33,896 bases of DNA from a virus (IMGVR_UViG_3300017757_002567:1-33896), one strand, 5' to 3'. Positions 5,862 through 22,394 are shown, numbered from the stretch's first letter. The notes: generated by a model from the letters alone, not told the origin. Program-made: numbers and translations.

Positions 5862-5868
5862 AATGTAG

Positions 5869-5876: not shown

Positions 5877-5890
5877 ACTTTACAAAGTTC

Positions 5891-5919
5891 TTGACAAACA
5901 ACGTGAATACCTATATACT
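5891..5919 (+). promoter_or_regulatory. Strong host sigma70-type early promoter
   Basis: TTGACA (5891-5896), 17 nt, then TATACT (5914-5919). The start site falls just before tRNA-Ser. The same hexamers and spacing, and the same TTGACAAACA start, recur at 11451-11479. Confidence 0.85.
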
Positions 5920-5932
5920 AAGGATTAAACTA

Positions 5933-6022
5933 GGAAAGGTGGCTGAGTGGCTTAAAGCACCTCCCTGCTAAGGAGGAGTACGGGTAACTGTACCGAGAGT
6001 TCGAATCTCTCCCTTTCCGCCA
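5933..6022 (+). tRNA. trnS: tRNA-Ser (anticodon GCU)
   Basis: The cloverleaf is clear: acceptor GGAAAGG (5933-5939) pairs with CCTTTCC (6012-6018), followed by discriminator G and an encoded CCA. The anticodon stem CCTCC/GGAGG encloses loop CTGCTAA with anticodon GCT (5967-5969). There is a long variable arm as in serine tRNAs, and a TTCGAAT T-loop. It reads AGT/AGC, and AGT is the dominant serine codon in this window. It is the first gene after the early promoter. Confidence 0.95.
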
Positions 6023-6118
6023 GTTATTAAAACTAGTGTTAATCAATACCGGTAAATATGTGCTACCTAGTAATAAAGAATTATTAGGCAAACGTGGAAA
6101 CACAGAGAGAATTACAAA

Positions 6119-6325
6119 ATGGTAAAAGCAAAAGCAAAAGTATCTAAAAAAGCAACTAAGAATGACTGGTGGTTTCAAGATGTTGGCGACAACGTAATGA
6201 GAAACGCACAAGAAATTAGTGCAAACATTAGAGCAAACGCAGAAGAAATAAGTGCTAATATTCAAGCAAATTCACAAAGAGTTGGCGACAATATGAAAGC
6301 ATACCTAAATAGAAATTTAGGATAA
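6119..6325 (+). CDS. Small basic amphipathic protein between two tRNA genes
   Basis: This 68-aa protein has a Lys-rich N terminus (six Lys in the first 15 residues), then WWF, then a helix with internal duplication: EISANIRAN followed by EISANIQAN, bracketed by VGDNV and VGDNM. The pattern suggests an amphipathic coil or membrane-surface helix. I recognise no family. It lies between tRNA-Ser and tRNA-Ala in an early transcript and has only a weak purine-rich ribosome site. As an early small protein it could act on host functions, but that is a guess. Confidence 0.7.
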   Translation: MVKAKAKVSKKATKNDWWFQDVGDNVMRNAQEISANIRANAEEISANIQANSQRVGDNMKAYLNRNLG

Positions 6326-6336
6326 AATAACGGACT

Positions 6337-6412
6337 GGGGCGGTAGCTCAGTTGGGAGAGCGATTGGTTTGCAACCAATAGGTCGGAGGTTCGATCCCTC
6401 TTCGCTCCACCA
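6337..6412 (+). tRNA. trnA: tRNA-Ala (anticodon UGC)
   Basis: This is a 76-nt cloverleaf. Acceptor GGGGCGG pairs with TCGCTCC (two G-U pairs), followed by discriminator A and an encoded CCA. The D arm reads TAGCTCAGTTGGGAGAGC. The anticodon stem ATTGG/CCAAT encloses loop TTTGCAA with anticodon TGC (6370-6372). The T arm reads GGAGGTTCGATCCCTC. It reads GCA, the commonest alanine codon seen in the window. Confidence 0.96.
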
Positions 6413-6427
6413 GTTCATGAGGTAAAG

Positions 6428-6688
6428 ATGGCAGATGAGAAAGATAGAGAACTAGAGGATATTATCACTGGGGCAATATTAGATTTACTCATTGATGCAA
6501 GAGACCAAGGTATGGAATTACTAACGTTTGAGCAAATCTGTGACTTATTAGGTGTTGACGATATAAGTCTGATGTCTAAAATGGAAAAAGGTATGACGTT
6601 CGAACTAAACGATGAATTTTTAAATAAACTTAAAGATCCAGAAATAAGGAGAGCAATGCTCGAATCCTTTAGGGCCACAAAACATTGA
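6428..6688 (+). CDS. Small acidic helical protein of unknown function
   Basis: This 86-aa protein is strongly acidic at the N terminus (MADEKDRELEDII), with predicted helices and a possible helix-turn-helix-like segment LLTFEQICDLLGVDDISLMSKM (about 31-52). It has no membrane segment or signal peptide, and I recognise no family. It starts 16 nt after tRNA-Ala with a GAGGTAAAG ribosome site. Its stop TGA overlaps the TTG start of the reductase (TTGA), so the two are probably translationally coupled. Confidence 0.75.
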   Translation: MADEKDRELEDIITGAILDLLIDARDQGMELLTFEQICDLLGVDDISLMSKMEKGMTFELNDEFLNKLKDPEIRRAMLESFRATKH

Positions 6689-7401
6689 ATACAGAAAAAG
6701 TTACATGGGTCCATCACTGGACAGACAAAACATTTAGTTTTAAAACAACACGCAATCAATCTTTTCGTTTCGTAAACGGTGAGTTTGCTATGATTGGATT
6801 AATGGTAGATGACAAGCCATTAGTTAGAGCATACAGTATTGCAAGTGCAAACTACGAAGATGAACTAGAGTTCTTAAGCATAAAGGTACCCGACGGACCT
6901 CTTACAAGCCGTCTACAGCATTTAAAAGTTGGAGATGAAGTAATATGTATGCCTAAAACAACGGGCACTCTAACGATAGATAACTTAACTGTAGCGGATA
7001 ATTTATATTTGTTATCGACTGGCACAGGACTTGCTCCGTTTATGAGTATTATTAGAGCACCAGAAACATATGACAAGTTTAAAAATGTTATATTAGTACA
7101 CACAACTAGAACACATGCAGAACACACTTACACAGATGTAATTAAACAAGTACAAGAAGTATTTCCTTTAAAGTATTATGATACATGCACACAGGAAGAT
7201 TACGTTCGTAAAGGAAGATTTTGGGAACACGTGGATTTAATTACTAACGGTGGGTTTGATAAAGAAACTGACAGAGTTATGGTATGTGGCGGCCCAGAAA
7301 TGAATTATGAATGCCGAGACTTTTTTGAAGAGAATGGTTTTACAGAAGGCAACTTAGGTGAGCCTAATGATTTTGTACTAGAACGTGCTTTCGTAGACTA
7401 A
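6685..7401 (+). CDS. fpr: Ferredoxin/flavodoxin--NADP+ reductase, Fpr type
   Basis: This 238-aa protein has the layout of bacterial Fpr: FAD domain with RAYSIAS (48-54) and VPDGPLTSRL, then NADP domain with GTGLAPF (113-119), HTTR, and VMVCGGPEM (198-206). The C terminus FVLERAFVD matches the aromatic tail of the subgroup that ends near the flavin. It moves electrons between NADPH and ferredoxin or flavodoxin. The start is TTG at 6685 overlapping the upstream stop; the protein aligns with Fpr from its first residues, so this start is sound. The next two genes are radical SAM enzymes that need low-potential electrons, so feeding them is a reasonable inference. Confidence 0.92.
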   Translation: MNTEKVTWVHHWTDKTFSFKTTRNQSFRFVNGEFAMIGLMVDDKPLVRAYSIASANYEDELEFLSIKVPDGPLTSRLQHLKVGDEVICMPKTTGTLTIDNLTVADNLYLLSTGTGLAPFMSIIRAPETYDKFKNVILVHTTRTHAEHTYTDVIKQVQEVFPLKYYDTCTQEDYVRKGRFWEHVDLITNGGFDKETDRVMVCGGPEMNYECRDFFEENGFTEGNLGEPNDFVLERAFVD

Positions 7402-7407
7402 AAATAC

Positions 7408-7415
7408 GATAAGTA
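7408..7415 (+). promoter_or_regulatory. Variant late promoter box (GATAAGTA)
   Basis: GATAAGTA, then 5 nt (CATGC), then the ATG at 7421. It matches the variant at 2900-2907 on the minus strand. Confidence 0.45.
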
Positions 7416-7420
7416 CATGC

Positions 7421-9190
7421 ATGTTAGAAAACTTTAATCCAGAAAAAACACCCGTAGATGTTCTGCTTTTTGCAGATGACTTAACTTCTATTTGGTATTA
7501 TGAAGGCATGATACCAGGTTCAAGTGTGTATGACTTTGGTTTAAAGTTAGCAGACGACCAGGGTATGAAACAATTCACAGACGAAGAATATGCAAAATAT
7601 TTAGAATATGTAGAAAAAACATCACCAGAATCAGAACGAGTGTGTCATTATGTAGAAAACAATGACTTTTGTTCTGCACACCATACCGCAAGAAGTTATG
7701 CAATGTACAAACTTGCTCATGAACTGAGAAAGAAAGGTTATACAGTACAGGTTATAATACACTTTTGGTATCACACAGAAGATGATTTTAAAAAGATATT
7801 TGAAAAATTTATAGGTGATAATACATTAATGGTAGGTTTTAGTCAAACATTCCATAGTGCATTTAATCCTTGGGCATTATTTCATTCGTTATATATGCCT
7901 CCACAACGTCAACGCAAAATAAAAGAATGGATAAATGAAATAAATCCTAATACTAAATTAGTATCCGGTGGCAGTCCTCATACTTTAGAGACATTATTGG
8001 ATAAAAGATATGATAGTGCTATGTTTGATATGGATATTATTAATGTTGGGTATGCTGAAGCAACAATTTTTGAAATGCTAGACGATATTAAAGCAGGAAC
8101 AGAGTGGCCTACCTATACAGATAGAGGTAGTAGACTAGATATTCAAAACAGTACAATGAGTTACTGTGATGAAGATGCAATTATTAACGGAGATGAAATA
8201 CCATTAGAAACATCACGTGGTTGTATTTTTACTTGCAGTTTTTGTAACTTTGGATTATTAGGAAAACAAAAAGGTACATACATTAGGAAACAAAGTCTTA
8301 TCCAAGATGAATTAAAACGTAATTGGGAAGAGAATGGCATATACAAGTATTGGGTAATGGATGATACATTTAATGAAGATAGTGATAAATTAAAACTTGT
8401 AGCCGAAGCAAAACATAATGCTAACATACCATTAGAACTTAGTGCTTTTCTTAGATTAGACTTACAACATAGATTAAAACAAGAACAGTTATTATTAGAT
8501 TGTGGACTTTTTAATCCAACTTATGGTATAGAAACTTTAAATCCTTTAAATGGTCCATTGATAGGTAAAGGTTGGGATCCTTTAGAACAGTTTGAATACT
8601 TATGGGAATTAAAAAATGGTATTTTTAAAGACAAAGTGCAACTCTTTAGTTCATTTGTAGTTGGATTACCAGAAGACACCCACGAGTCTTTACAGTTGTT
8701 TAGAGAACAAATATTAGATCCTAAGTTTAATCCTTTAGATTATTTAATGATTAATCATATGTTTATTAGAGACTTGTCCTCACACCAAGTTACAACATCA
8801 GGAGATGAAAACTTTCAACAGACAGGTAGTAAGATAGATAGAAATCCAGAAGAGTATGGCTATACCTTTCCTGTACAAGAAGCAAATAGAATACAGCAGG
8901 CTACAAGTGGAGCAGTCGTTAGGTACTGGCGTAATAAACACGGCATAACTTATACTGGAGCACAACGTTATGTTAAAAAACTAAATGAAGACTTCCACAA
9001 AAGTAGGGGCTGGATGCCAAACCTTATTTCAACATATCATAAGATACCACAAGATGCAGAAAAAACAGACTATATGAAAAATTACTGGCAACAGTATTGG
9101 TCAAAAGTTATGGGAGTACAACAACACACAGTTTATAATTCTGTGCAATGGGTAAATGAAGGAAAAATTACAGAGTTTAAACCTATATGA
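7421..9190 (+). CDS. B12-binding-domain radical SAM enzyme, copy 1
   Basis: This 589-aa protein has an N-terminal Rossmann-like domain (about 10-230) with the cobalamin-domain pattern: AHELRKKGYTV, a MVGFSQTF strand, LVSGG, and INVGYAEATIFEML. A radical SAM domain follows, with C268-x3-C272-x2-C275 (RGCIFTCSFC) holding the 4Fe-4S cluster. After that come MDDTFNED, LSAFLRLDL, YGIETLN and VVGLPEDTHESL, which are usual strand motifs of this class. The classical DxHxxG lower-ligand motif is not seen, so cobalamin binding may be base-off or lost. The substrate is unknown. It is paralogous to the next gene, whose ATG overlaps its stop (ATGA). It may be electronically supported by the upstream reductase. 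Confidence 0.88.
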   Translation: MLENFNPEKTPVDVLLFADDLTSIWYYEGMIPGSSVYDFGLKLADDQGMKQFTDEEYAKYLEYVEKTSPESERVCHYVENNDFCSAHHTARSYAMYKLAHELRKKGYTVQVIIHFWYHTEDDFKKIFEKFIGDNTLMVGFSQTFHSAFNPWALFHSLYMPPQRQRKIKEWINEINPNTKLVSGGSPHTLETLLDKRYDSAMFDMDIINVGYAEATIFEMLDDIKAGTEWPTYTDRGSRLDIQNSTMSYCDEDAIINGDEIPLETSRGCIFTCSFCNFGLLGKQKGTYIRKQSLIQDELKRNWEENGIYKYWVMDDTFNEDSDKLKLVAEAKHNANIPLELSAFLRLDLQHRLKQEQLLLDCGLFNPTYGIETLNPLNGPLIGKGWDPLEQFEYLWELKNGIFKDKVQLFSSFVVGLPEDTHESLQLFREQILDPKFNPLDYLMINHMFIRDLSSHQVTTSGDENFQQTGSKIDRNPEEYGYTFPVQEANRIQQATSGAVVRYWRNKHGITYTGAQRYVKKLNEDFHKSRGWMPNLISTYHKIPQDAEKTDYMKNYWQQYWSKVMGVQQHTVYNSVQWVNEGKITEFKPI

Positions 9191-10977
9191 AGCACATAAT
9201 TACATATGATAAAGAATTTATTCATACAGAAGTAGATGTATTAATGTTTGCTAGTGACCCAACTGTGGGCAGGCTTTATGAAACACACTTAAACCACATC
9301 AACTATCAGAAACGTTGGTCACAAGAAGAGTATGACGAATATTTACAACTTGCAGATAAAATGGAACAAAAGTGTTGGACTAAAAATCAAGAATATACTC
9401 CAATAGGATATAAACAACAGGCATCCGAACACTGGATAGAGTGGCCCATGAGCAATGACCATAATTCTAGGTCAATGGGAGCAGACAGAGTTGCACATGA
9501 AGTTAGGCAAATGGGTTATACAGTACAAGTAATACATTATCCATTACACGCCTCAGAAGATTTAATACATAAAGTTTTTAAAAAGTTTGTAGGACCTAAT
9601 ACTAAAGCAGTAATGTTTGGACAAGTGTTTGCCTTTGGTACTGAACAACGAGGATTAGTTAATAGTGTATATTTTCCTCCAGCAAGACAGCATAAATTAA
9701 AAGAATGGGCAACAGAAATTAATCCTAACATAAAATTTGTTATAGGAGGAATACAATTTAATGCTACAGAAGAATTAAAAGGTAGAGGACAAGTAGATTC
9801 TCCACTACTAGACATAGATGTGTTTATGTTTGGTTATGCTGATGTTACAATTAGACATATGATGAAGGATTTAGACAACAACACACTTAAAAAAGTATAC
9901 ACTGACGCCAAAAGTTTGTTAGATATAGAAAATTCTACACAACATTATTTTCCTGAAGACATTGTTACACCAAAACAGCAATTATCTTTAGAAATTGGTA
10001 GAGGATGCATATTCAAATGTACATTTTGTGAATTTAACTTAATAGGCAAAGAAAAAGGCTCTTATATGAGGAGTTCATCAAGAGTAGAAGACGAACTAAA
10101 ACGTAATTGGGAAGAGTTTGGAGTATCAAATTATTGGATAACAGATGATACTGTAAATGATGACAGTGAAAAATTAGAAAAACTAGCAGAAATAAAAAGT
10201 CGTACAGGAATTCCGTTAAAGTGGTCCGGTTTTGCAAGATTAGATTTACAACACAGATTAAAACAAAGCCAACTATTAGTAGACGCCGGCGCCGGATGGC
10301 TACATTACGGAATGGAAACAACAATTCATGAAAGTGGTATTTTGTTAGGCAAGGGTTGGGATCCTGAGGAGCAGTTTGAATTTGTTAGAGAATTAAAAGC
10401 CGGCATATTCAAAGATGTAGGCATGAGTTCAAACTTTATGTTTGGTTTACCAGAAGATTCTTATGAAGGTTTAAAAGACTCATACAATAAATTAACAGAT
10501 TTAGAATATAATAAACTGGATGCTATATATCCTGTTATATATAAACTTCGTAGGTCCGTAGGTAAAGGTGAGAAACTAGATGGTACAAAAACTGAAAGTG
10601 TAATACAGGCAGATCCAGCCGGTTATGGATATACAGAGTATAGTCCAGACCAAATTAAACAGATTCGTTCATCAGGACTGTTCGGTCCCGGGCAAGAAGA
10701 CATGTTTTTTTACACAAATAAGCATGGTGTAACAATAATGAAAGCATATCACTATGCATCTACTACCAAAAAAACATTCAATCGTTTAAAAACACACGCC
10801 CACAGAAACCCAATTACAGCCAGTAACCTGTTAAGGCAAGAAATGTATAATGACCATACTGAATATTTTGATAAAGTAATGAATATCAAAGAACATAATA
10901 GAGTAGAGTCTGTAACATTGTGGAAAGATGATGTACCTACTACACTAACTGTTCAAGAATACAGAGATTCAATCTAA
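9187..10977 (+). CDS. B12-binding-domain radical SAM enzyme, copy 2
   Basis: This 596-aa protein is collinear with the preceding gene along its length. It has a Rossmann-like N-terminal domain (AHEVRQMGYTVQVIHYP, FVIGG, VFMFGYADVTI) and a radical SAM cluster motif C274-x3-C278-x2-C281 (RGCIFKCTFC). The shared blocks include DELKRNWEE, ARLDLQHRLKQ, GKGWDP and GLPED. Differences lie mainly in the first 100 and last 120 residues, where substrate contacts would be expected. Two adjacent, diverged but complete copies suggest two related reactions or a hetero-pair rather than a dead duplicate. Translation is coupled to copy 1 by the ATGA overlap. Confidence 0.88.
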   Translation: MKHIITYDKEFIHTEVDVLMFASDPTVGRLYETHLNHINYQKRWSQEEYDEYLQLADKMEQKCWTKNQEYTPIGYKQQASEHWIEWPMSNDHNSRSMGADRVAHEVRQMGYTVQVIHYPLHASEDLIHKVFKKFVGPNTKAVMFGQVFAFGTEQRGLVNSVYFPPARQHKLKEWATEINPNIKFVIGGIQFNATEELKGRGQVDSPLLDIDVFMFGYADVTIRHMMKDLDNNTLKKVYTDAKSLLDIENSTQHYFPEDIVTPKQQLSLEIGRGCIFKCTFCEFNLIGKEKGSYMRSSSRVEDELKRNWEEFGVSNYWITDDTVNDDSEKLEKLAEIKSRTGIPLKWSGFARLDLQHRLKQSQLLVDAGAGWLHYGMETTIHESGILLGKGWDPEEQFEFVRELKAGIFKDVGMSSNFMFGLPEDSYEGLKDSYNKLTDLEYNKLDAIYPVIYKLRRSVGKGEKLDGTKTESVIQADPAGYGYTEYSPDQIKQIRSSGLFGPGQEDMFFYTNKHGVTIMKAYHYASTTKKTFNRLKTHAHRNPITASNLLRQEMYNDHTEYFDKVMNIKEHNRVESVTLWKDDVPTTLTVQEYRDSI

Positions 10978-10984
10978 TCCACTC

Positions 10985-10992
10985 TATAAATA
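10985..10992 (+). promoter_or_regulatory. Perfect T4 late promoter box (TATAAATA)
   Basis: TATAAATA, then CAGGT, then the ATG at 10998. The 5-nt gap places a T4-type start site at the AUG itself. Confidence 0.8.
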
Positions 10993-10997
10993 CAGGT

Positions 10998-11420
10998 ATG
11001 GAACTACCACATAGACACCCAATAGCATTAATAGACAGACATGAGATTATAGATGACCAATCTATTGTTGCTAGTTATACAGTCCAAGCAGACCATCCAG
11101 TCCTAGAAGGACATTTCCCACATGTAAAAATTTGGCCCGGTGTTTATTTAATAGAAGGCATGAATCAATGTGCCGGTATCCATGCATTACATTTAGCAGA
11201 ACAAGATGTTGGCAAAGTAAAACATAGTGACTATGTTACCTTTGTTACAAGAGTAGACAACTGCAAATTTCGTAACCCAGTATTCCCTGGAAACGTTTTA
11301 ACACTTAAAGCAACTCTGCAAAAGAAAAAAATGAACAATATATTTTATGAATGTGAAATATTATGTGATAAAAAACGTGTTGCATCAGCAAGTATAGGAT
11401 TAACCGCTAAAAAACTGTAA
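10998..11420 (+). CDS. FabZ-like 3-hydroxyacyl-[ACP] dehydratase (hotdog fold)
   Basis: This 140-aa protein is the usual FabZ length. It begins with ELPHRHPIALIDR, has EGHFPHVKIWPGV and LIEGMNQCAG, and keeps the catalytic pair His39 and Glu53 with the 14-residue spacing of FabZ. FabZ removes water from 3-hydroxyacyl-ACP during fatty-acid elongation. In a phage this could alter membrane lipid or make an acyl group for another product. The close position behind a reductase and two radical SAM enzymes suggests one pathway, but it has its own perfect late box. Confidence 0.88.
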   Translation: MELPHRHPIALIDRHEIIDDQSIVASYTVQADHPVLEGHFPHVKIWPGVYLIEGMNQCAGIHALHLAEQDVGKVKHSDYVTFVTRVDNCKFRNPVFPGNVLTLKATLQKKKMNNIFYECEILCDKKRVASASIGLTAKKL

Positions 11421-11450
11421 TTTTCACTAAATTGATTCAAAAATTACCAA

Positions 11451-11479
11451 TTGACAAACATTTTTTTTGAAGTTATACT
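11451..11479 (+). promoter_or_regulatory. Second strong sigma70-type early promoter
   Basis: TTGACA (11451-11456), 17 nt including a run of eight T, then TATACT (11474-11479). It has the same hexamers and spacing as the promoter at 5891-5919, and serves the gene at 11511. Confidence 0.85.
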
Positions 11480-11510
11480 AACTAGTGATATTGTTGGAGT
11501 AAAATAAACA

Positions 11511-12668
11511 ATGGCTAGAAAGAAACAAAGAACAGTTTACGTTACCAAAGTTCCTGATTGGAAAAAGTATCAGGGCATGACCGATCCTGTGGAACAAGAG
11601 AATGCATTTAGAGAAATGGATTACTTTGTGCATTCTGAAATCTCAACTAAAGACCAAGTTTCTAAATTTAGGAAATGGGTTAAAGAAGCAAGTGGTTGGG
11701 ATAAAGACGATATTAAAATTATCTTAAAGAATCCGGATTGGCGATTTAGTAGTAGTGCCAAGTATGCATGGTGTTGGGCAAAGGTAGGCTTTATGCCAGA
11801 ACGTTTGTCTGGCTTTTATGAAAAAAGAATTCCAGAATGGTTAGAGCGAGGTAGAGAAGTGGTTGAAGAACAAGAAGTAAAGAAAGTTGAGAAGCCAAAA
11901 ATTTCTATACAAGAAAGAATGCTAGAGCAAATTTGTGACTTATGCGGTGACTGGGACGACATGTTAGATAACTTTATTGAAAAAGACAAAATAACTTTAA
12001 AAGACTTCAATCCTGAAAAAGACTTAAAAGTTTATCAAGGCGGTGTTATAAAGCCAGCACATGCTAAGATGATAAAGGATCAATACGAGGCTCATTTAGC
12101 AGAAGCAAAAGAAAGTTTAGAAGGTAAATGTGACCAACTAAATGAAGCATACAGTTTTATGGATAAGAAAATGAAAAAGGACTATGTTGGTTTCTTTGAA
12201 AAGATTCATCTTGCCTGCGATGCTGTTATACTTACTGGTAAAGCAACTAGAAAACAACGTAAGCCTAGAAGCAGAAGTAAAGAAAGCATTATTAAGAAAT
12301 TAAAGTTTCAAGTAGCCGATGGAGACTTAGGAATAGCATCTATATCGCCCACAGACGTCGTATATGCTAATGAACTTTGGGTTTACAATACAAAGTCCCG
12401 TAAGGTCGGTGTGTACCATGCATCGAACAAAGATCCACGCAATATGCAAAGACAAGGTGCTGGATTAATGGTTAAAGGCACAACAATACAAGACTTTTGT
12501 ACAGAGTCTAGTATGCAAAAGACACTTAGAAAGCCAAAAGAACAGATTAGCAACTGGACAGGAAATGCTAAAACACGTTTTGCTAAAGCATTCGACGAAG
12601 TAAAAACAACATCAACTAAACTAAACGGAAGAATCAACGATACTACAATCATACTTAGAGCCTTTTAA
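11511..12668 (+). CDS. Conserved-looking early protein of unknown function
   Basis: This 385-aa, Lys/Trp-rich soluble protein runs behind a strong early promoter with a TTGGAG ribosome site. N-terminal part (1-125): short helical motifs with Trp (DWKKYQG, KWVKEASGWDKDD, NPDWRF, KYAWCWAKVGF). Middle (130-240): charged helices with CDLCGDWDDM. Around 245-260 there is a very basic patch (RKQRKPRSRSK) that would suit nucleic-acid binding. The C-terminal part is strand-rich with LWVYNTKSRKVGVYHA. I do not recognise the family. The early promoter and basic patch suggest a role in early nucleic-acid handling, which is inference only. Confidence 0.75.
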   Translation: MARKKQRTVYVTKVPDWKKYQGMTDPVEQENAFREMDYFVHSEISTKDQVSKFRKWVKEASGWDKDDIKIILKNPDWRFSSSAKYAWCWAKVGFMPERLSGFYEKRIPEWLERGREVVEEQEVKKVEKPKISIQERMLEQICDLCGDWDDMLDNFIEKDKITLKDFNPEKDLKVYQGGVIKPAHAKMIKDQYEAHLAEAKESLEGKCDQLNEAYSFMDKKMKKDYVGFFEKIHLACDAVILTGKATRKQRKPRSRSKESIIKKLKFQVADGDLGIASISPTDVVYANELWVYNTKSRKVGVYHASNKDPRNMQRQGAGLMVKGTTIQDFCTESSMQKTLRKPKEQISNWTGNAKTRFAKAFDEVKTTSTKLNGRINDTTIILRAF

Positions 12669-12679
12669 CACTGGAAAGT

Positions 12680-12687
12680 GATAAATA
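12680..12687 (+). promoter_or_regulatory. Late promoter box (GATAAATA) for gp13
   Basis: GATAAATA, then GTAGT, then the ATG at 12693: a 5-nt gap and no Shine-Dalgarno. Confidence 0.8.
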
Positions 12688-12692
12688 GTAGT

Positions 12693-13460
12693 ATGGCACA
12701 AAGAATAGACCAAATAGGCTACAACAATAGAGACGAAATCATTAAAGAAATCCAGTTAAGACTGGCTGATGGTATGGTAGATGTTGAATTGGATAGAGAG
12801 CATTACGACATTGCAATAAACAAATCTATACAAAAGTATAGACAGTTGAGTAGTGGTAGTGTAGAAGAAGCAGTTATTTTTATACAAACTCAAGATGGTG
12901 TAACAAAATACACACTTCCTGATGAAGTTATAGACGTTAAACGTTTATACAGAAGAGGTATTGGAACTAATAGCGGTGGCGGTACTAACTTTGATCCATT
13001 TGATGTTGCATTTAACAATATGTACATGCTACAAGCAGGACAAATAGGTGGACTTGCAGTATTTGATGCATTTGCACAATACAAAGAAACTATTGGTCGT
13101 GTATTTGGTAGTGAGTACAACTTTACATTTAATCGCAACACAAAAGAATTAACTATTTTAAGAAACGTGGCACACGCAGAAGACATTGCAGTTGGAGTTA
13201 ATAATTTCATACCAGAGAGTGTTTTAATTAAAGACGTTTATGCCGCAGATTGGCTTTCAAACTTTGCATTAGCACAGAGTAAAATGATGCTAGGCGAAGC
13301 AAGAAGCAAATTCCCAGGTGGATTACCAGGACCAGGTGGAGCAGTAACTCTTAATGGTGATGCCTTAAAGGCAGAAGCACTAACAGAGATGGATCAACTG
13401 ATAGCATCAGTACACAACATGGAAGAAGGTAATAGCCCACTTGGCTTTGTAATGGGATAA
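12693..13460 (+). CDS. gp13: gp13-like neck protein
   Basis: This 255-aa protein begins MAQRIDQIGYNNRDEIIKEI and has LDREHYDIAINKSIQKYRQ, YTLPDEVIDVKRLYRRG, and a C-terminal block with SKMMLGEARSKF followed by a Gly/Pro stretch and LNGDALKAEA. These match T4 gp13, which binds the portal end of filled heads together with gp14. I start at the ATG at 12693 because it follows a late box by 5 nt. A GTG at 12678 in frame lies inside the promoter and is unlikely. The stop codon overlaps the late box of the next gene. gp14 and gp15 are on the opposite strand 7 kb away. Confidence 0.85.
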   Translation: MAQRIDQIGYNNRDEIIKEIQLRLADGMVDVELDREHYDIAINKSIQKYRQLSSGSVEEAVIFIQTQDGVTKYTLPDEVIDVKRLYRRGIGTNSGGGTNFDPFDVAFNNMYMLQAGQIGGLAVFDAFAQYKETIGRVFGSEYNFTFNRNTKELTILRNVAHAEDIAVGVNNFIPESVLIKDVYAADWLSNFALAQSKMMLGEARSKFPGGLPGPGGAVTLNGDALKAEALTEMDQLIASVHNMEEGNSPLGFVMG

Positions 13461-13463
13461 ATA
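13456..13463 (+). promoter_or_regulatory. Late promoter box (GATAAATA) for the oxygenase array
   Basis: The GATAAATA overlaps the gp13 stop codon. The array's first ATG is 32 nt downstream and has a TAGGAGA ribosome site, so this transcript has a normal leader. Confidence 0.75.
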
Positions 13464-13495
13464 CATTATAAATAATATTGTTGTAGGAGACAAAT

Positions 13496-14407
13496 ATGTT
13501 AAATAACATAAAACAAAATGATTTCACATTCGATGGTTGGAAGTATAGCACAATGCCTGCAATTAAGAATGCTGGAGATGAGAATACTGAAGCAAACAAA
13601 GGGTACTACATTGATTTACCTATCGAAATGCCTTTTACAGCAGATGAAATTTTTGATGACCAAGACTATGAATTTGCTGAAGAATTCGGTCTACAACAAA
13701 AGTTTACAACGCCATTTGCATCAAAAAACATACAGTGGAACGTAACTCCAAGTGCTGGCAGACCAGCAGGAACAATTGGTTACATTCAAACTAAAAAATA
13801 TCAAAACATGCTGAGAGACTATTTCGCAGAAACTTTTAATATTGACATGCTCGATAGAAAAGTTCCAGGAATGTTTCCAGTAACATTAATTAAGTTCCAA
13901 TGGAATTCACATTACCACAGAGAAGGTTATGCTGAACATCATACCCAAGCACAAAGAGAATACTTAGGTTTAAATAGAAGCCAGTATGCAATTAATTTTA
14001 AACTTTGGGGAGACACAGAAGGAACAGCAGTAGAGTTTGGTGAGCAATCAAGTGAAATTGATAGTTTAGAAAAATCTTTAATGCTAAAATTAATGGAGAA
14101 ACATCCAAATCCATATACTGGAGCAGAAAGAGTTGCAGTTACAGATGAATCAGGCGATACATTTGGTGTATACACAGGTAGAGATGGATTCTTAGGTGAA
14201 ACTAATGAATACGAAGAAAGAGAAGTAACACCAGTTGTTAGACGTGTAGGTTATCAAAACCCATACATGATTAATTTACAAAAGTATCACAGGATTGTAT
14301 TATCAGAACAAAAATCAAGAATTAGTATGAGATTGATGTGTTCAGATAAAGACTTTACGTTTGAACAAATAGAAGAACTCAACGAAAAAGGTCTTCTTTT
14401 AAAATAA
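13496..14407 (+). CDS. Putative Fe(II)/2OG-type oxygenase, array member 1
   Basis: This is the first of five tandem homologues (303 aa). The family pattern is an N-terminal signature (here YYIDLPIEMPFTADEIFDDQDY), a central strand ending in H-x-E (His141/Glu143 in SHYHREG), a NFKLWGD strand, a distal His265 in KYHRI, Arg275 and Arg279 in SRISMRL, and a C-terminal helix reading FEQIEELNEKGLLLK. HxE...H with an Arg about 10 residues later is the iron and 2-oxoglutarate signature of the double-stranded beta-helix oxygenases. The substrate is unknown. It has a longer N terminus (about 35 residues) than its neighbours. Assignment is by motif only; a structural role cannot be excluded. Confidence 0.75.
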   Translation: MLNNIKQNDFTFDGWKYSTMPAIKNAGDENTEANKGYYIDLPIEMPFTADEIFDDQDYEFAEEFGLQQKFTTPFASKNIQWNVTPSAGRPAGTIGYIQTKKYQNMLRDYFAETFNIDMLDRKVPGMFPVTLIKFQWNSHYHREGYAEHHTQAQREYLGLNRSQYAINFKLWGDTEGTAVEFGEQSSEIDSLEKSLMLKLMEKHPNPYTGAERVAVTDESGDTFGVYTGRDGFLGETNEYEEREVTPVVRRVGYQNPYMINLQKYHRIVLSEQKSRISMRLMCSDKDFTFEQIEELNEKGLLLK

Positions 14408-14420
14408 ATTAAGGATAAGT

Positions 14421-15218
14421 ATGTGTGTGAACACATATTTTGACATACCAGAACTATTAAAATATCCTTTGCCTTTTAAAGCAGAGGATATTTTATTGGA
14501 TTCAGACTTTGCCTTACAAGACGGGCACCAACCTCCAGAACATGTTTTTAAAAATGCAACTAAGATAGCATGGACTACTAACGAAGAAGCACCTAATTTA
14601 CAAATAGGATTTATAGCAGATAAAAATATATCACGTCTAATGCAAGAGTGGGCAAAAGATATATTCCCAAGTAATTTTTTTACAAGAGCATTTTATAACA
14701 GACCAACAAAAACTTTTCCAGCAACATTAGTAATGACTAAAGCAAGTGAATCTAGTAGATGGCATTACGAGGGATTTTATCCTTGGACAAAATTAGAAGA
14801 GGGGTTTGCAAGAACTAGTGCTGTACTTAATATTAAATTAAAAGCAGATGAGGACAGTGATATTGTATTTGGGCAACCAAGTAAGCATGTGTTAAATACT
14901 GTTGAGCAGTTATACAATTCGAGAACACCAGGACAAGATGTGCAATGGTGTAAAGATAAAAACATTAGAAGTAACTTTTATAGTGATGCTATAATGACTA
15001 TAGACGAAAACGTTACAGAAATAGATAGAAAAGTAAACTACGATTGTCCGTTCCTCCTAAACTTAGGACATTCAGATACCCACCCTAATCCTTGGCACCG
15101 TGTTGAAAATAGTAGAACTAAAGAACCGAGGATCAGTTTTAGATTAATGTGTAATGAAGAACTACCAATGGAACATTGGGTTGATTTACACAAGGAGGGT
15201 AAATTAATAAATGCATAA
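14421..15218 (+). CDS. Putative Fe(II)/2OG-type oxygenase, array member 2
   Basis: This is the shortest member (265 aa). It has the N-terminal signature YFDIPELLKYPLPFKAEDIL, metal-site candidates His115 and Glu117 (SRWHYEGF), distal His226 (PWHRVEN) and 2OG Arg candidates 237 and 241 (PRISFRLM). The C-terminal helix is EHWVDLHKEGKLINA. It has an AAGGAT ribosome site 13 nt after member 1 and overlaps member 3 by 8 nt. The region between GQPSKHV and the distal His is diverged from the others, so it may accept a different substrate. Confidence 0.75.
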   Translation: MCVNTYFDIPELLKYPLPFKAEDILLDSDFALQDGHQPPEHVFKNATKIAWTTNEEAPNLQIGFIADKNISRLMQEWAKDIFPSNFFTRAFYNRPTKTFPATLVMTKASESSRWHYEGFYPWTKLEEGFARTSAVLNIKLKADEDSDIVFGQPSKHVLNTVEQLYNSRTPGQDVQWCKDKNIRSNFYSDAIMTIDENVTEIDRKVNYDCPFLLNLGHSDTHPNPWHRVENSRTKEPRISFRLMCNEELPMEHWVDLHKEGKLINA

Positions 15219-16140
15219 TGTGAGAAATCATCTTTGTTCTTTTCCAAATTTGGAATTACCTATCACAGTAGATGATATTTTTACTGAAGATGATTACGAC
15301 TTAATTTACAACAGAAAAAAATTTAATGATAAGGTAGAAATCGTAGAGCACCCAGACATGTTTGGTTGGACAATGGCCCAAACAGAAAACATGAACTGGA
15401 TGTATAGTCCAAATGAGCATAAGATAGCCGGTACAGATATTGTGCTAGACATGGATCAAGATTTTGTTGAAGTTGAAAACATGAAAGGCTACAGACCTCC
15501 AACCAGTATAGGTATTATAACAAATAAAAAACTAATGTACACACTTAGAGAGTTTGCACAAGATACTTTCCATGAAGACTATCTAGCAGACATCTGGAGT
15601 TTGGGAGGAAAGAAAATTGTTCCTATTACACTTATTGGATTTAGTGGACCAAGTACATATCATACAGAAGGTTTATCAGGTTGGAGAAAAATTGCAGACG
15701 AAAGTTTGTTACAAAATAGAATCGAAACATCACGTACAAGTGCTGTATGCAATTTTAGATTATTAGGCGATGCAGATGATTGCTCAATTGAAGTTGCAGA
15801 ACCAGATGAAATATTTACAGCAGAATATGATGCATTAAACAAACGTTACACAGACCAATGGAAAGTTGATGGCAAAGAGCCTGTAACTATGTGGAGTGAT
15901 AACGGCATTAGTGTTTCTGAAACTATTGACCAAACATCAAGCAATAAAATGTTACAGCATTTAAAACCTGCAGGAAAAATAGAAGGATACCATAGTCCAT
16001 TTTTACTAAATTTATCTTCTTGGCACAGAGTTAATATTAAAACAATAGCACCAAGAGTTAGTTTAAGATTTATGGGACATAAGAATCAAACGTTTGAACA
16101 TTTTCAAAATTTGATAGATGAAGGAAAATTTTTAAAATGA
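15211..16140 (+). CDS. Putative Fe(II)/2OG-type oxygenase, array member 3
   Basis: This is a 309-aa member with FPNLELPITVDDIFTEDDYD near the N terminus. Site candidates are His151 and Glu153 (STYHTEGL), distal His272 (SWHRVN) and Arg282/286 (PRVSLRF). The segment NFRLLGD is shared with members 4 and 5. The middle carries an extra loop (about 200-245). The ribosome site AAGGAGG lies inside the end of member 2. Its stop overlaps the ATG of member 4 (ATGA). Confidence 0.75.
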   Translation: MHNVRNHLCSFPNLELPITVDDIFTEDDYDLIYNRKKFNDKVEIVEHPDMFGWTMAQTENMNWMYSPNEHKIAGTDIVLDMDQDFVEVENMKGYRPPTSIGIITNKKLMYTLREFAQDTFHEDYLADIWSLGGKKIVPITLIGFSGPSTYHTEGLSGWRKIADESLLQNRIETSRTSAVCNFRLLGDADDCSIEVAEPDEIFTAEYDALNKRYTDQWKVDGKEPVTMWSDNGISVSETIDQTSSNKMLQHLKPAGKIEGYHSPFLLNLSSWHRVNIKTIAPRVSLRFMGHKNQTFEHFQNLIDEGKFLK

Positions 16141-17066
16141 ATGGATGCTATATAGATGTACCTAATTTAGAACTACCTTGGTCAGCAGAAGATATTCTTT
16201 CAGAAGAAGATTTTGAATTAGTACATGCAAAAAATGGTGCATCGAGAGACCTTACAATACAATCAAAAAACATTATATGGACTAATGCAGGTAAGCAACG
16301 TTATGATTTACTTGCAGGCGGTAATCCTCAAAACCTTGCACAAGAAGAGATAGACAGAATACTTGCAGAACAAAGTTATTTTAATGGTACAGGAATAGTG
16401 CATGACCAGACACTAAAACGAGAAATGTGGGAGTGGCTAAACGATACGTTCCATAAAGACTATGTAGATAATTTATGGACCGGACCAAACGGTCATAGTA
16501 AAATAGTTCCTGTTACTGTGTTATGTTTTAATAAAACATCTGGATGGCATTGTGAAGGACCAATAGAAACACCGCATTTTGTTCCAAACACATTTGATGT
16601 TACTAGAATTAATAAATCACGACCACCTGCTGTATGTAACTTTAGACTACTAGGAGATGTAGAAAACAGTAAAATAGAATTTGCAGAGTGTTCAGAATCT
16701 TTAGAAATGATACACAATTTGGCTAGAGATAAATTTTTTGCAGATTGGATAGCAACTAACGTAGACCCGGAATGCCAATACGAATCGCCTATAGTTAGTA
16801 ACATTCTTCCCTCAATAAGTATTGTAAATAATATACGAGTAGGCCCTGTTAGCAGTTATATATTAGATATTGGCGCCTGGAAAAACCATATAAATAAAAT
16901 AGATTGCCATGAAGGAATGCATAATCCATATTTTGTTAATGTGTCAAAATGGCACAGAGTATTAACTAACAATACTCCTAGAGTAACTTTTAGAGTACAT
17001 GCTAGTAAGAATATAACTTTTAATAAGATAGAAGAACTTATAGAGTCGGAAACTTTTTTCAAATGA
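16137..17066 (+). CDS. Putative Fe(II)/2OG-type oxygenase, array member 4
   Basis: This is a 309-aa member starting NGCYIDVPNLELPWSAEDIL. Site candidates are His138 and Glu140 (SGWHCEGPIE), distal His273 (KWHRVL) and Arg282/286 (PRVTFRV). It is the closest relative of member 5: FNKTS-WH-EGPIE, NFRLLGD and KWHRVLTNNTPRVTFRV are shared, in places with long exact DNA identity. It has an inserted loop at about 55-80 that member 5 lacks. The start ATGA overlaps the stop of member 3, and the stop overlaps member 5 the same way. Confidence 0.78.
   Translation: MNGCYIDVPNLELPWSAEDILSEEDFELVHAKNGASRDLTIQSKNIIWTNAGKQRYDLLAGGNPQNLAQEEIDRILAEQSYFNGTGIVHDQTLKREMWEWLNDTFHKDYVDNLWTGPNGHSKIVPVTVLCFNKTSGWHCEGPIETPHFVPNTFDVTRINKSRPPAVCNFRLLGDVENSKIEFAECSESLEMIHNLARDKFFADWIATNVDPECQYESPIVSNILPSISIVNNIRVGPVSSYILDIGAWKNHINKIDCHEGMHNPYFVNVSKWHRVLTNNTPRVTFRVHASKNITFNKIEELIESETFFK
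16959..17000 (+). repeat. 42-nt exact repeat, copy in array member 4
   Basis: Bases 16959-17000 are identical to 17840-17881 and encode the catalytic distal-His/Arg block. Other exact matches between the same two genes are 16521-16540 with 17432-17451, and 16635-16659 with 17546-17570. Confidence 0.85.
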
Positions 17067-17947
17067 ATAATTGCTATATAGATTTACCAGAACTTGAACT
17101 GCCTTGGTCGGTAGACGAATTATTTTGTGATGAAGATTATAATATAATTAACGATGACAATAGTCACCTTAGACCGTACATGATTAAAACAGATAGACTA
17201 GTATGGAATAACTGGCAAGCCCAAGATGGAGGCGAAGCAAGTTGGATGTATGATAATATAATCACACCTAATAATAAACTAAATGTACATTTTAATGGTA
17301 CAGCACTTATTACAAATACTAAACTAAAACGTGAAGTGTATGATTGGGCTAGAGATACATTTCATAAAGACTACTTAGATGAACTTTGGGGAGTCAGTCC
17401 AAATGCCGCAAAATTTCCACCTATATCTATTTTATGTTTTAATAAAACATCAGCATGGCATTCAGAAGGCCCCATAGAAATTCCAAATGATATTCCTGTT
17501 GACTTTAGTACAAAAATACTTCGCCGTGTGAGAGCATCGATATGTTGTAACTTTAGACTACTAGGAGATGAAGACGATAGTATTTTACAATTTACACATG
17601 CTTCAGACGAGTTAAATAAAATGTATAGACAATTAGAACATAAATTTGTATATAAATGGTTTAACAATAATTCGCCTAATTCGCCTAATCCAGAATATAT
17701 TGTTAGAAATGGATTGAAAGTTTCTCCTTCTACTAGTTATATTGTAGATACAGAAAAATGGAAAAAACATATACCTATAAGTGTTGAACGTAAAGGAATG
17801 CATTGTCCGTTTTTTATTAACATAAACAAATGGCATAGGGTATTAACTAACAATACTCCTAGAGTAACTTTTAGAGTACATTCAGGCGATGCAATGAATT
17901 TTAGAAAAGTTGAAGAATTAGTATCTTCCGGAAATTTCTTTAAGTAA
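17063..17947 (+). CDS. Putative Fe(II)/2OG-type oxygenase, array member 5
   Basis: This is a 294-aa member starting NNCYIDLPELELPWSVDELF. Site candidates are His133 and Glu135 (SAWHSEGPIE), distal His258 (KWHRVL) and Arg267/271 (PRVTFRV). It is nearly the same plan as member 4, from which it seems to have separated by a fairly recent duplication. Members 3-5 are chained by stop/start overlaps, which suggests balanced co-translation, perhaps into one complex. It is the last gene before gp1, which has its own late-type box. Confidence 0.78.
   Translation: MNNCYIDLPELELPWSVDELFCDEDYNIINDDNSHLRPYMIKTDRLVWNNWQAQDGGEASWMYDNIITPNNKLNVHFNGTALITNTKLKREVYDWARDTFHKDYLDELWGVSPNAAKFPPISILCFNKTSAWHSEGPIEIPNDIPVDFSTKILRRVRASICCNFRLLGDEDDSILQFTHASDELNKMYRQLEHKFVYKWFNNNSPNSPNPEYIVRNGLKVSPSTSYIVDTEKWKKHIPISVERKGMHCPFFININKWHRVLTNNTPRVTFRVHSGDAMNFRKVEELVSSGNFFK
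17840..17881 (+). repeat. 42-nt exact repeat, copy in array member 5
   Basis: This is the second copy of the repeat at 16959-17000. The flanking sequence is diverged, so the identical block is shorter than the homologous one. Confidence 0.85.
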
Positions 17948-17970: not shown

Positions 17971-18627
17971 ATGATAATAGGAATAACAGGCTTTATGGGC
18001 AGTGGCAAAGATACAGTTGCAGAAATGTTCGTAGAAAGAGGAGCAGTAAAAGATAGTTTTGCGGCACCACTCAAGGATTTATGTTCTAGTGTGTTTGGTT
18101 GGGAAAGACACATGTTGGAAGGCGATACTATTGCAAGTAGAGACTTCAGAGAAACAGCAGATATATACTGGACAAGAAAACTAGGCATAGATAATTTTAC
18201 TCCAAGACTAGCACTTCAGTTGCTAGGTACAGAAATAATGCGTACACATTTTAATCAGGACATTTGGTTAGATAGTTTAGAGTATCGTATTAGAAAACAA
18301 TCACAAAATGACCAACTAGTTGTTGTAAGCGATGCTAGATTTAAAAATGAGTTAGATTTAATTAAGCAACTCGACGGTATAGTTATTCATGTTATAAGAA
18401 ATGATATGCCTGAATGGTATGAAGTGGCATCACATGCCAATAAAGGTAGTGTTCCAGCAAAGCACACAATGGAAACACGTTATGCAAGTGTACATGCTAG
18501 TGAATGGAAGTGGGCAGGATATGATTTTGACTATGAAATATCTAACACAGGAACACTAACAGAATTGCAAGAACAAGTACATGCAATACATAATAATATC
18601 TTTTCTACCAAAATCAAAGCAATATAG
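17971..18627 (+). CDS. gp1: Deoxynucleoside monophosphate kinase (T4 gp1-like)
   Basis: This 218-aa protein has a P-loop GFMGSGKDT at residues 7-15, followed by the dNMP kinase pattern: DSFAAPLKDL, then WTRKLGIDNFTPRLALQLLGTE, VVVSDARFKNELDLI and VIHVIRND. T4 gp1 phosphorylates dGMP, dTMP and hydroxymethyl-dCMP to feed phage DNA synthesis. The specificity for modified dCMP cannot be read here. It is placed between late genes, as gp1 also is in T4, and has a late-type box in front. Confidence 0.88.
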   Translation: MIIGITGFMGSGKDTVAEMFVERGAVKDSFAAPLKDLCSSVFGWERHMLEGDTIASRDFRETADIYWTRKLGIDNFTPRLALQLLGTEIMRTHFNQDIWLDSLEYRIRKQSQNDQLVVVSDARFKNELDLIKQLDGIVIHVIRNDMPEWYEVASHANKGSVPAKHTMETRYASVHASEWKWAGYDFDYEISNTGTLTELQEQVHAIHNNIFSTKIKAI

Positions 18628-18749: not shown

Positions 18750-21536
18750 ATGGCAGAATTAGTATCACCAGGTGTTAGCATTAGTGTATCCGACGAATCG
18801 TTTTATGCGGCGGCGGGTGCTGGTACTGTACCTTTGTTAATCATTGCTACGGCCCAGGATAAAACTGGACCAGATGGAACAAGTACAGCGGCATTTACAA
18901 CTAAAGCAAACGCAGGTAAATTAAAACTAATGACTAGTCAACGTGAGTTATTACAACAGTTTGGAAACCCAAGTTTCTATTCAAGTGGTAGTAATCAGTT
19001 GAATGGTTATGATCTCAATGAATACGGTTTACTAGCGGCCCACAGTTTCTTAGGTTTGGCAAACAGAGCATACGTTCTGAGAGCAGATATAGACTTAGGT
19101 GAATTAGCGGCATCCAGCAAGGCTCCAACAGGTGCTATTGCAGATGGATCATATTGGTTTGACACAGCATCTTCAACTTTTGGTTTAAGAGAATGGTCAG
19201 GCACAGCATGGGTTAAGAAAGACGTATCCGTTGTAGATTCAACAAGTATCAACTCAGGAACAGGTGGACCAAGTCAAGCATTTGGACAGAACGGCGATTA
19301 CGCAGTTGTGGCAAATACAGCGGCTGGTGGAACTGCTACTCAAGTTAAATACTACGAAAAATATTCAAACGACTGGTACCAAGTAGGTACTACAAGTTGG
19401 AGTTCAGCAACATCAAGTGACTTCCAATTTAGTACTCATTTATCAGTACCAAGTCTAAGGTCAGATGATACAACAGCATTATCTACTGGCGATGTATTTA
19501 TTCAAACTTCTACACCTAACACAGGTGCAAGTTTGTCTACTAAACTTTACAGTTCTTCAAGCAAGACTTTTAGTGCAGTAGCAACAACAATATACGCAAG
19601 TACAGATGCGGCCCTTACAGCAGTAGGTACAGCAAACGTTAAAGTTGGCGACCTTATTGCAATACATGGCGGCACAGAAGCAGAGTATGACCTGAAAAGA
19701 CATAATGGAGACACATCACTAGTAGCGACTGGTTCAGCCGCATTTGGTAGTGGTGTAGACGTTTCCGGCAACAGCAGTTTTGACATTGTTTACAATGGCG
19801 CAACTACAGTTGTAACATTGGCAGGAACAATTAGTACAACACCAGCAACATCAACAGCCGAAGATGCAGTATATGACATCAACGCGGCTCTTGGCGCGGC
19901 TAGTGTAACAGAAGTTCTTGCTTCAATAGGAGATAATAACAATATTATATTAACTTCTAGCAAAGGTAGAGATATTAAAGTACAAAGTAATCATGCAGAC
20001 TTTGGACCAAGTTCAATTGGACTAGGAACACAGGCGGTTACAGCGGACAAGACATATTCAAACTATGCGGCCCTTTCATATGTAGCATCTAAAACTACAA
20101 TGACAGGAACTTTAGCAGATGGTACTTACTGGTACAATGCGACAGTGGCTAAGGCTAACGTTGACTTATTAGAGCACAACGGTACTACTTGGGTTACTTT
20201 CACAAAAGACGTAAGTGTAACTGCAACAGCACCAACAGTACAATCAGACGGAACTGCTCTAGTAGCCGGTGACGCATGGTTGGACTCAGACGATACGGAA
20301 AACTTCCCTAAATTCTACAAGTGGTCAGGTACAGCCTGGGTTGCAGTAGACGGAAGTGACCAACATACATCAGAAGGAATAGTATTTGGAGACTTTAGAC
20401 AGTCTTCAGCAGGTTCTTTAGATGCAGACGCACCGGCGGCAACAGCATACCCAAGTGGTATATGGGGTTATAACAAACGTGCTTCAGCAGGTAACGTTAA
20501 AGAATACAAAATTAACTATACACCATCTGGAACAAATATTGGTAACGTATGGGTTGATGCTTCAGGAAACAAAGTAGACGGTAACATGTATGGATTAAGA
20601 AAAGCAGTACACAATTTAGTTAAAACTAAAATGCAATCTGCAATCGTTTCTAATGATGACATTAGAAGTGAAGTTAATGCATATAACATTATTGCCGCTC
20701 CTGGCTTCCCAGAATTGCTAGACGAAATGGTATCATTAAGCACAGACAGAAGAAATACTGCTTTTGTTGTTGCTGATACACCATTTAGACTTAAAGCAGA
20801 TGCTACAAGCACAAAAAATTGGGCAACTAACGCCAACAATGCTAGTGAGAATGGAGAGGACGGACTTGTTTCTGCTTCACCATACGCGGCAGTTTATTAC
20901 CCAAGTGCTTTAACAACTAACTTAGACGGTACCAACGTAGTTGTACCACCAAGTCATGTTGCTTTAAGAACTCTTGCATACAATGACCAGGTTGCTTTCC
21001 CTTGGTTTGCACCAGCAGGCTTCCAAAGAGGTCTTGTTCAAAATGCAACATCAGTAGGTTATGTAGATCCAGCGACTGGAGAGTACACAGCAGTGACACT
21101 CAACGAAGGTCAAAGAGATACATTATATGGTAACAAATTGAATCCAATTGCTCAATTCCCAGGACGTGGACTTGCAGTATTTGGTCAAAAAACTCTAAAC
21201 CCAACAGCAAGTGCGTTGGATAGAATTAACGTTGCTAGACTTATTGTGTACATAAGAGAAAGACTTGACGATATCGTTAAGCCATTCTTATTTGAACCAA
21301 ATGATGCAGTAACTAGGCAAAATGCTAAAGATGTAGTCGACGGTTTATTGAGTAACTTAGTTATTCAAAGAGGTTTATTTGACTTCGTTACAGTTTGTGA
21401 TGGAACAAATAATACTCCTGCTAGAATTGATAGAAACGAACTATACATTGACATTGCTATACAGCCTGTCAAAGCAGTTGAGTTTATATACATTCCGATT
21501 AGAATCCAAAACACTTTGGGCTCATCAGGTAGTTAA
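18750..21536 (+). CDS. gp18: Tail sheath protein (gp18-like), enlarged with surface modules
   Basis: The N-terminal part (MAELVSPGVSISVSDES, then VPLLIIATAQDKTGPDGT) and the C-terminal part (about 600-928, with GRGLAVFGQKTLNPTASALDRINVARLIVYIRERL and a C-terminal VKAVEFIYIPIRI) match contractile sheath proteins. The sheath contracts to drive the tube into the cell. Its 928 residues compare with 659 in T4. The extra length (about 125-590) is Ser/Thr/Ala-rich and holds at least five loosely repeated modules of the form G-D/S-Y/V-W ... W-S-G-T-A-W-V, at about 132-157, 181-212, 246-275, 457-486 and 506-536. These would lie on the outside of the sheath. It has a strong ribosome site and its own terminator. 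Confidence 0.92.
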   Translation: MAELVSPGVSISVSDESFYAAAGAGTVPLLIIATAQDKTGPDGTSTAAFTTKANAGKLKLMTSQRELLQQFGNPSFYSSGSNQLNGYDLNEYGLLAAHSFLGLANRAYVLRADIDLGELAASSKAPTGAIADGSYWFDTASSTFGLREWSGTAWVKKDVSVVDSTSINSGTGGPSQAFGQNGDYAVVANTAAGGTATQVKYYEKYSNDWYQVGTTSWSSATSSDFQFSTHLSVPSLRSDDTTALSTGDVFIQTSTPNTGASLSTKLYSSSSKTFSAVATTIYASTDAALTAVGTANVKVGDLIAIHGGTEAEYDLKRHNGDTSLVATGSAAFGSGVDVSGNSSFDIVYNGATTVVTLAGTISTTPATSTAEDAVYDINAALGAASVTEVLASIGDNNNIILTSSKGRDIKVQSNHADFGPSSIGLGTQAVTADKTYSNYAALSYVASKTTMTGTLADGTYWYNATVAKANVDLLEHNGTTWVTFTKDVSVTATAPTVQSDGTALVAGDAWLDSDDTENFPKFYKWSGTAWVAVDGSDQHTSEGIVFGDFRQSSAGSLDADAPAATAYPSGIWGYNKRASAGNVKEYKINYTPSGTNIGNVWVDASGNKVDGNMYGLRKAVHNLVKTKMQSAIVSNDDIRSEVNAYNIIAAPGFPELLDEMVSLSTDRRNTAFVVADTPFRLKADATSTKNWATNANNASENGEDGLVSASPYAAVYYPSALTTNLDGTNVVVPPSHVALRTLAYNDQVAFPWFAPAGFQRGLVQNATSVGYVDPATGEYTAVTLNEGQRDTLYGNKLNPIAQFPGRGLAVFGQKTLNPTASALDRINVARLIVYIRERLDDIVKPFLFEPNDAVTRQNAKDVVDGLLSNLVIQRGLFDFVTVCDGTNNTPARIDRNELYIDIAIQPVKAVEFIYIPIRIQNTLGSSGS

Positions 21537-21605: not shown

Positions 21606-22394
21606 ATGAAATTAGACTCAGAATTTACAAGACAAGAAAAACTTGATTCAGCATTCCAAAAGGTATGGCACAAAGACGGTCCAGGCTCTACCCAAGCACT
21701 AAATGACATTTATGATTACTTAGATTCTTTTAGAGAAGGTCTTTGGGAAGATATGGTTGCTGGTATAGAAGGTACTCCACACGAACAGATACAAACTGTA
21801 TTAGACAGAGATGAATCATATAAGGCAGTACTTGACCAACGTAATTATACTATAACAGATGCTCAACGTCTTGTAGCAGAGAATGAACATGGATTAGACA
21901 GTTGGATGGCTAACAATTTACGTTATGGGTTAGACCATAAACCACATTGGATTTCTGAAGATTCGGAAATACATTATGATTTCACAATAGATAACCCAAA
22001 CATACCAACAGCAAGAAAATTATTAGATAGATGGACACCGGAAGAATGTCCTATTGCAAGTTATTCTATACTTAGAGCAGACTCTGTTATAAAAAGACAC
22101 ACAGGTATTGAAAATAGATTAGGAAACTACATGAGAATTCATGTTCCTTTGTATATACCTGAAGGGGAATTGTATTTTGAAGTTTGTAATCTAGAAATTG
22201 ATTGGACAAAAACGTTTGGGTTTAACAATCAATGGATACATAGTGCATACAATGAATCTCAAGAACACAGAGCAGTTTTTAGTATAGACCTACACAGAAA
22301 CTTATTAGATTTACCTACTGGAGTACATTTTTTCAACTCCAAGTTCAAAGAATTAAACGAATTCCCTACAGATCCATACATCAGAAAGCAATAG
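21606..22394 (+). CDS. Aspartyl/asparaginyl beta-hydroxylase-like protein
   Basis: This is a 262-aa protein. The first 145 residues are helical with no recognised family. Residues about 150-240 carry the Asp/Asn hydroxylase pattern: SVIKRHTGIEN with metal-site candidate His165, YMRIHVPLYIP (Arg177), then WIHSAYNESQEHRAVFSIDLH with distal His212 and 2OG Arg222, exactly 10 residues apart as in the family. This family uses Fe(II) with two His and no acidic ligand. It lies between sheath and tube genes with its own late box, so it is made when virions are assembled. A virion-protein substrate is tempting but unproven. Confidence 0.85.
   Translation: MKLDSEFTRQEKLDSAFQKVWHKDGPGSTQALNDIYDYLDSFREGLWEDMVAGIEGTPHEQIQTVLDRDESYKAVLDQRNYTITDAQRLVAENEHGLDSWMANNLRYGLDHKPHWISEDSEIHYDFTIDNPNIPTARKLLDRWTPEECPIASYSILRADSVIKRHTGIENRLGNYMRIHVPLYIPEGELYFEVCNLEIDWTKTFGFNNQWIHSAYNESQEHRAVFSIDLHRNLLDLPTGVHFFNSKFKELNEFPTDPYIRKQ

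Follow-up and report, generated by a model that had tools for sequence, protein, structure and literature searches.

Marine phages commonly carry unexplained genes for oxygenases that depend on Fe(II) and 2-oxoglutarate (2OG): such genes were found in 14 of 16 cyanophages, with up to five in each (PMC3037559), and S-SCSM1 has 24 of them (PMC9602691), their functions being unproven in both reports. Here we analysed a 33,896-base virus record (IMGVR_UViG_3300017757_002567, taken whole and hereafter called the window) from a lineage of marine T4-like phages, jumbo phages among them; the record carries a tandem array of five genes for enzymes of this type, ox1 to ox5, at positions 13496-17947. The array resembles the cyanophage oxygenases (PF13640, PF13661, PF13759, PF05721) in that a single marine T4-like phage genome encodes multiple divergent 2OG oxygenases; such multiplicity is already known, and the view of an earlier reading of the DNA (the original prediction) that five copies are unusual was not borne out. 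In contrast to the cyanophage enzymes, the window family matches none of their Pfam models, is longer (~265-310 amino acids, aa) and is arranged as a tandem array of one family, the slot of which between the neck and tail sheath genes is fixed. What is new is this orphan family, its array in a conserved slot and a linked set of enzymes, and in a partial coverage of the literature we found no paper describing the three together. The five proteins are very probably active Fe(II)/2OG oxygenases, and we rate the chances as about even that they serve as tailoring enzymes in one phage-encoded modification pathway with the linked module.

An orphan family with invariant active-site residues

Every pair among the five proteins is related by BLASTP (E 4e-8 to 1e-86, 21-41% identity), so that their similarity reflects paralogy and not chance, as had been proposed. 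The genes all lie on the plus strand: ox1 (13496-14407, 303 aa), ox2 (14421-15218, 265 aa), ox3 (15211-16140, 309 aa), ox4 (16137-17066, 309 aa) and ox5 (17063-17947, 294 aa), the last three starting, as previously described, before the preceding stop codon. Each assignment draws on BLASTP paralogy, a family alignment and the ratio of nonsynonymous to synonymous substitution rates (dN/dS), together with AlphaFold models for ox1 and ox4.

Iterative searches of viral loci with a hidden Markov model (HMM) returned 161 matches in 64 loci, window counted, and 69 family members from marine viral contigs were aligned, with residues numbered as in ox4. Mean column identity across this alignment is 19%, and only H138, E140, R162, N168, H273 and R282 are invariant in all 69 sequences. 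H138, E140 and H273 make up the expected HxD/E...H iron triad and, by DSSP on the ox4 model, follow one another along the strands in the canonical order. R282 sits 9-11 residues past the distal His in 68 of the 69 members and 13 residues past it in the remaining one, the spacing expected of a 2OG-binding Arg, and would be the basic residue that binds the 2OG C5 carboxylate. Of the motifs singled out in the original prediction, ox1-ox5 show exactly the HRE/HYE/HTE/HCE/HSE series and the distal (W/Y)HR. Both Arg residues described downstream of the distal His are present, at a somewhat wider spacing of 9-11 and 13-15 residues (11 and 15 in ox2), and the second is found in 51 of the 69 members. 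The N-terminal (F/Y)-x-x-P-x-x-x-x-P motif does not fit all five proteins as written, the shared pattern being closer to Y-x-[DS]-x-P...P, with CSFP in ox3.

The family escaped classification by sequence. At E <= 0.1, none of the 69 members matched a 2OG family of Pfam (PF13640, PF13661, PF13759, PF05721, PF05118). PHROGs gave no significant match to a 2OG-oxygenase family and weak matches to other families only, the best shared being phrog_6840 (unknown function; five members, best E 8.5e-4), and neither NCBIfam nor PDB sequence searches yielded a match naming an oxygenase family. Querying annotated phages by tblastn with five family members produced zero matches, four cultured jumbo phages gave no match to a family profile, and no relative emerged from cellular genomes with the patterns used, which divergent relatives could escape. 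The 69-row alignment contains no conserved stretch suited to collection-wide scans. One family member (L013:6393-7472) lies on the minus strand, between both neck genes.

Structure prediction and fold searching recovered the double-stranded beta-helix superfamily fold on which the Fe(II)/2OG assignment depends. AlphaFold2 modelled ox4 with a predicted local distance difference test score (pLDDT) of 91.3 and a predicted template modelling score (pTM) of 0.89, and ox1 with a pLDDT of 87.6 and a pTM of 0.85, its first 27 residues falling below a pLDDT of 50. Both models were searched against the PDB with Foldseek and VIA-align, 50 matches being listed for each, and among these matches 50/50 PDB entries are Fe(II)/2OG-superfamily enzymes for either model and with either method. 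The best VIA Z among them is 10.6 for ox1 (133 aligned residues, 2.9 Å) and 9.1 for ox4 (146 aligned residues, 3.0 Å). Together with the invariant HxE, distal His and Arg in their canonical order, these matches bear out the proposed enzyme class.

The top structural matches are mixed, with KDM4, FIH and prolyl hydroxylases alongside proline 3-hydroxylase, BesD and WelO5, so the fold does not decide between a protein and a small-molecule substrate. The best Foldseek E-values were obtained with JmjC/FIH-type protein oxygenases (KDM4, FIH, NO66, JMJD7) at ~10% identity. KDM4 also has an HxE motif, whereas JmjC enzymes bind 2OG by a Lys on an earlier strand and the conserved 2OG-type Arg of the window family follows the distal His. 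BesD/HalB, WelO5 and proline 3-hydroxylase share the fold and give the top VIA Z-scores, with no search-level sequence similarity; the carboxylate ligand, invariant in the window family, is missing from halogenases of the BesD and WelO5 kind. The closest viral fold matches are short, unannotated Caudovirales proteins in BFVD (e.g. A0A6J5LE05).

Copy number and selection in the neck-to-sheath slot

The placement of the array within the virion-assembly region is upheld by a head-tail adaptor (neck) protein immediately upstream (12678-13460, +; PHROG 211, 4.6e-29) and, downstream, by a deoxynucleoside monophosphate (dNMP) kinase (17971-18627, +; PHROG 139, 1.2e-49) and the tail sheath (18750-21536, +; PHROG 10581, 8.6e-235). 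Many marine viral contigs encode sheaths related to this one, with 95-100% identity at most over the best segment, and one such contig is 339,794 bases long; the closest cultured sheaths, from PA5oct-like and other jumbo phages, reach ~47-49% identity or less. Moraphages (PMC12619734) were considered as candidates for this lineage, but no firm connection emerged.

Across 44 distinct neck-to-kinase slots, we counted no family copy in 11, one in 12, two in eight, three in nine, four in three and five in one, which puts the window at the top of the range. Among the zero-copy slots are those of sister-clade relatives and some occupied by a different gene (L043, L045). In the family tree, ox1-ox5 occupy five separate positions, each with its own orthologues in other contigs; of the five nearest pairs shown, four have 99-100% support. 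Comparison with the nearest orthologue gave dN/dS values of 0.11 for ox1 (versus L022) and, versus L008, of 0.14 for ox2, 0.07 for ox3, 0.28 for ox4 and 0.32 for ox5. Every copy is thus maintained by purifying selection, ox4 and ox5 being the faster-evolving ones.

In the original prediction the array was made late and its products perhaps formed a complex, both of which we treat as putative. A T4-type late promoter sequence, TATAAATA, precedes ox1 by 22 bases. Its count in the window, however, is that expected by chance, and in 37 distinct relatives no such site precedes the first oxygenase; a late promoter is not claimed.

The linked module and the candidate pathway

Four plus-strand genes of the window that lie ahead of the neck genes encode a bacterial-type ferredoxin-NADP reductase (6685-7401; phmmer 4.7e-75 to the bacterial FNR 6rr3), two paralogous B12-type radical S-adenosylmethionine (SAM) proteins with 39.6% identity to each other (7421-9190, PF04055 9.7e-8; 9187-10977) and a FabZ-like hot-dog dehydratase (10998-11420; PF07977 2.4e-20, FabZ structures 3e-18). 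The radical SAM proteins match NCBIfam B12-binding radical SAM families, but under the cut-off. The FabZ-like protein keeps the His of GHFP and the Glu of LIEGMNQ, which by eye match the FabZ catalytic pair, and may be an active dehydratase. As for an acyl carrier protein that could partner FabZ, only two records, of 340 kb and 217 kb, proved to have one, far away, and this candidate was set aside.

Linkage was assessed in 23 distinct loci with sufficient upstream coverage. Reductase and FabZ genes lie upstream in 17/17 distinct, fully covered loci with slot oxygenases, and at least one radical SAM gene does so in 15 of these. FabZ and radical SAM genes are absent from that site in 5/5 oxygenase-free sister loci, two of which have a reductase elsewhere, and all oxygenase-free loci of this kind come from sister relatives. 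The L043 locus retains reductase, radical SAM and FabZ; here (L043:5648-6463), as in L045 from ~801, what we read from the sequence by eye as a class I SAM-dependent methyltransferase replaces the oxygenases in the neck-to-kinase slot. The neck genes separate the module into two halves, which makes hitchhiking as a single contiguous block less likely.

We have an unclassified family with a fixed slot, variable copies and consistent partners, the function of which becomes approachable through the partner enzymes rather than gene by gene. In the proposed pathway, each ox protein would bind Fe(II) via H-x-E...H and 2OG via the Arg 9-11 residues past the distal His, and would oxidise a C-H bond with O2, most likely by hydroxylation. 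Old and separately maintained, the paralogues would most likely take different sites or intermediates, with the ferredoxin-NADP reductase as electron supply and the B12-type radical SAM enzymes and the FabZ-like dehydratase as further partners. Since the two parts of the module lie on either side of neck genes, within the block for virion assembly, the product would most likely belong to, or be attached to, the virion or the surface of the host. If so, the phage makes a chemically elaborate and previously undescribed modification. More tentatively, a lineage of marine jumbo phages may encode in the assembly block a multi-step biosynthetic pathway of its own, made up of these partners and one to five 2OG oxygenases, in which the number of oxygenase copies would determine how virions or the host surface are decorated. 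Polytheonamide-type pathways for ribosomally synthesised and post-translationally modified peptides likewise combine B12 radical SAM enzymes with a 2OG hydroxylase; the window adds FabZ and a ferredoxin-NADP reductase, and no precursor peptide was identified.

Several observations weigh against a common pathway of this kind. The linkage could reflect one clade-level gain or loss and not shared function, and the L063 and L095 groups have no radical SAM genes at the upstream site (both have an extra oxygenase there). The structural matches are distant, at ~10% identity and VIA Z 8-10, and the FabZ gene suggests acyl chemistry, which fits poorly with a protein substrate. The oxygenases might instead act without any tie to the radical SAM and FabZ genes and, as virions assemble, hydroxylate particular protein residues of the virion (neck, sheath, tube or fibre) or of the host; we regard this as possible but rather unlikely. 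The neck-to-sheath position is fixed in nearly all oxygenase-bearing relatives, and the top matches include KDM4, FIH, JMJD7, NO66 and prolyl hydroxylases, one of these being vCPH, which is viral and acts on collagen. Between sheath and tube, moreover, the window encodes a sixth 2OG-type enzyme, from the separate family of Asp/Asn beta-hydroxylases (21606-22394, +; PF05118 1.4e-10), which is seen in some relatives only and which, like the linked module, the original prediction had overlooked. However, BesD, WelO5 and proline 3-hydroxylase rank equally high in the same searches, the FabZ linkage is left unexplained, and relatives without a family oxygenase still have conserved sheath, neck and tube genes, so that such a modification is not generally needed.

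A purely structural role, as virion components that retain the oxygenase fold without catalysis, would agree with the position among virion genes, but a scaffold needs neither metal ligands nor an Arg, and their invariance in 69/69 members of so divergent a family makes this role very improbable. Modification of nucleotides or DNA, in which an oxidised base or nucleotide would be phosphorylated by the adjacent dNMP kinase, draws on the kinase start 23 bases past ox5; we consider it improbable, as the kinase adjoins the sheath in oxygenase-free relatives too, PA5oct among them. The position of the kinase is thus ancestral synteny, and a functional oxygenase-kinase link was rejected. Scarcely less improbable is an auxiliary metabolic role, in which consumption of 2OG or oxidation of host metabolites would reshape host metabolism. 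Such a role has been proposed for the cyanophage 2OG-Fe(II) oxygenases (PMC3037559), and an isocitrate lyase gene (PF00463, E ~1e-50) lies near a family oxygenase in two loci (L148:3300-4583, L095:3661-4872), but none was found in 13 other records searched, most of them fragments. Drawing down 2OG does not require five divergent, separately maintained paralogues, and the oxygenase genes sit in a structural block.

Further enzymes in the window and its relatives

In a 340-kb relative, a short and divergent pair of oxygenase-family genes (L112:12216-13491, -; 234 and 193 aa), related to the window family by HMM, immediately adjoins another radical SAM gene, far outside the assembly block, an arrangement that favours a shared pathway. 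Nearby open reading frames were named by eye as glycosyltransferase-like, methyltransferase-like and desaturase-like. Like the BFVD proteins, this pair is shorter than the window family (~170-235 aa for the two sets).

A further jumbo-phage region (L167, G001:1-20000, at ~2.7-17 kb) contains a PF13640 oxygenase and a run of radical SAM genes with seven PF04055 matches (4968-13826), of which two fall under the cut-off, along with methyltransferase, desaturase and carbamoyltransferase genes recognised by eye; its make-up suggests a cluster for biosynthesis or for glycans. SufB/SufD-family genes (PF01458) were seen in L158 and L161 (~12.5-16.8 kb), at G001:131357-134404 and in G013, apparently within an operon for SUF-type iron-sulfur cluster assembly (SufC and SufS by eye) that possibly supports the many radical SAM enzymes.

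The window encodes one more radical SAM protein, its third, at 25376-26425 (+), between the head closure and terminase genes; the N-terminal part of this protein is Cys-rich and SPASM/twitch-like, and the protein was detected in some relatives only. At 402-2267 (+), a CHASE2 sensor is fused to an adenylate/guanylate cyclase domain (PF05226 1.3e-33, PF00211 1.5e-18), and this gene is kept in several relatives, some of them without oxygenases.

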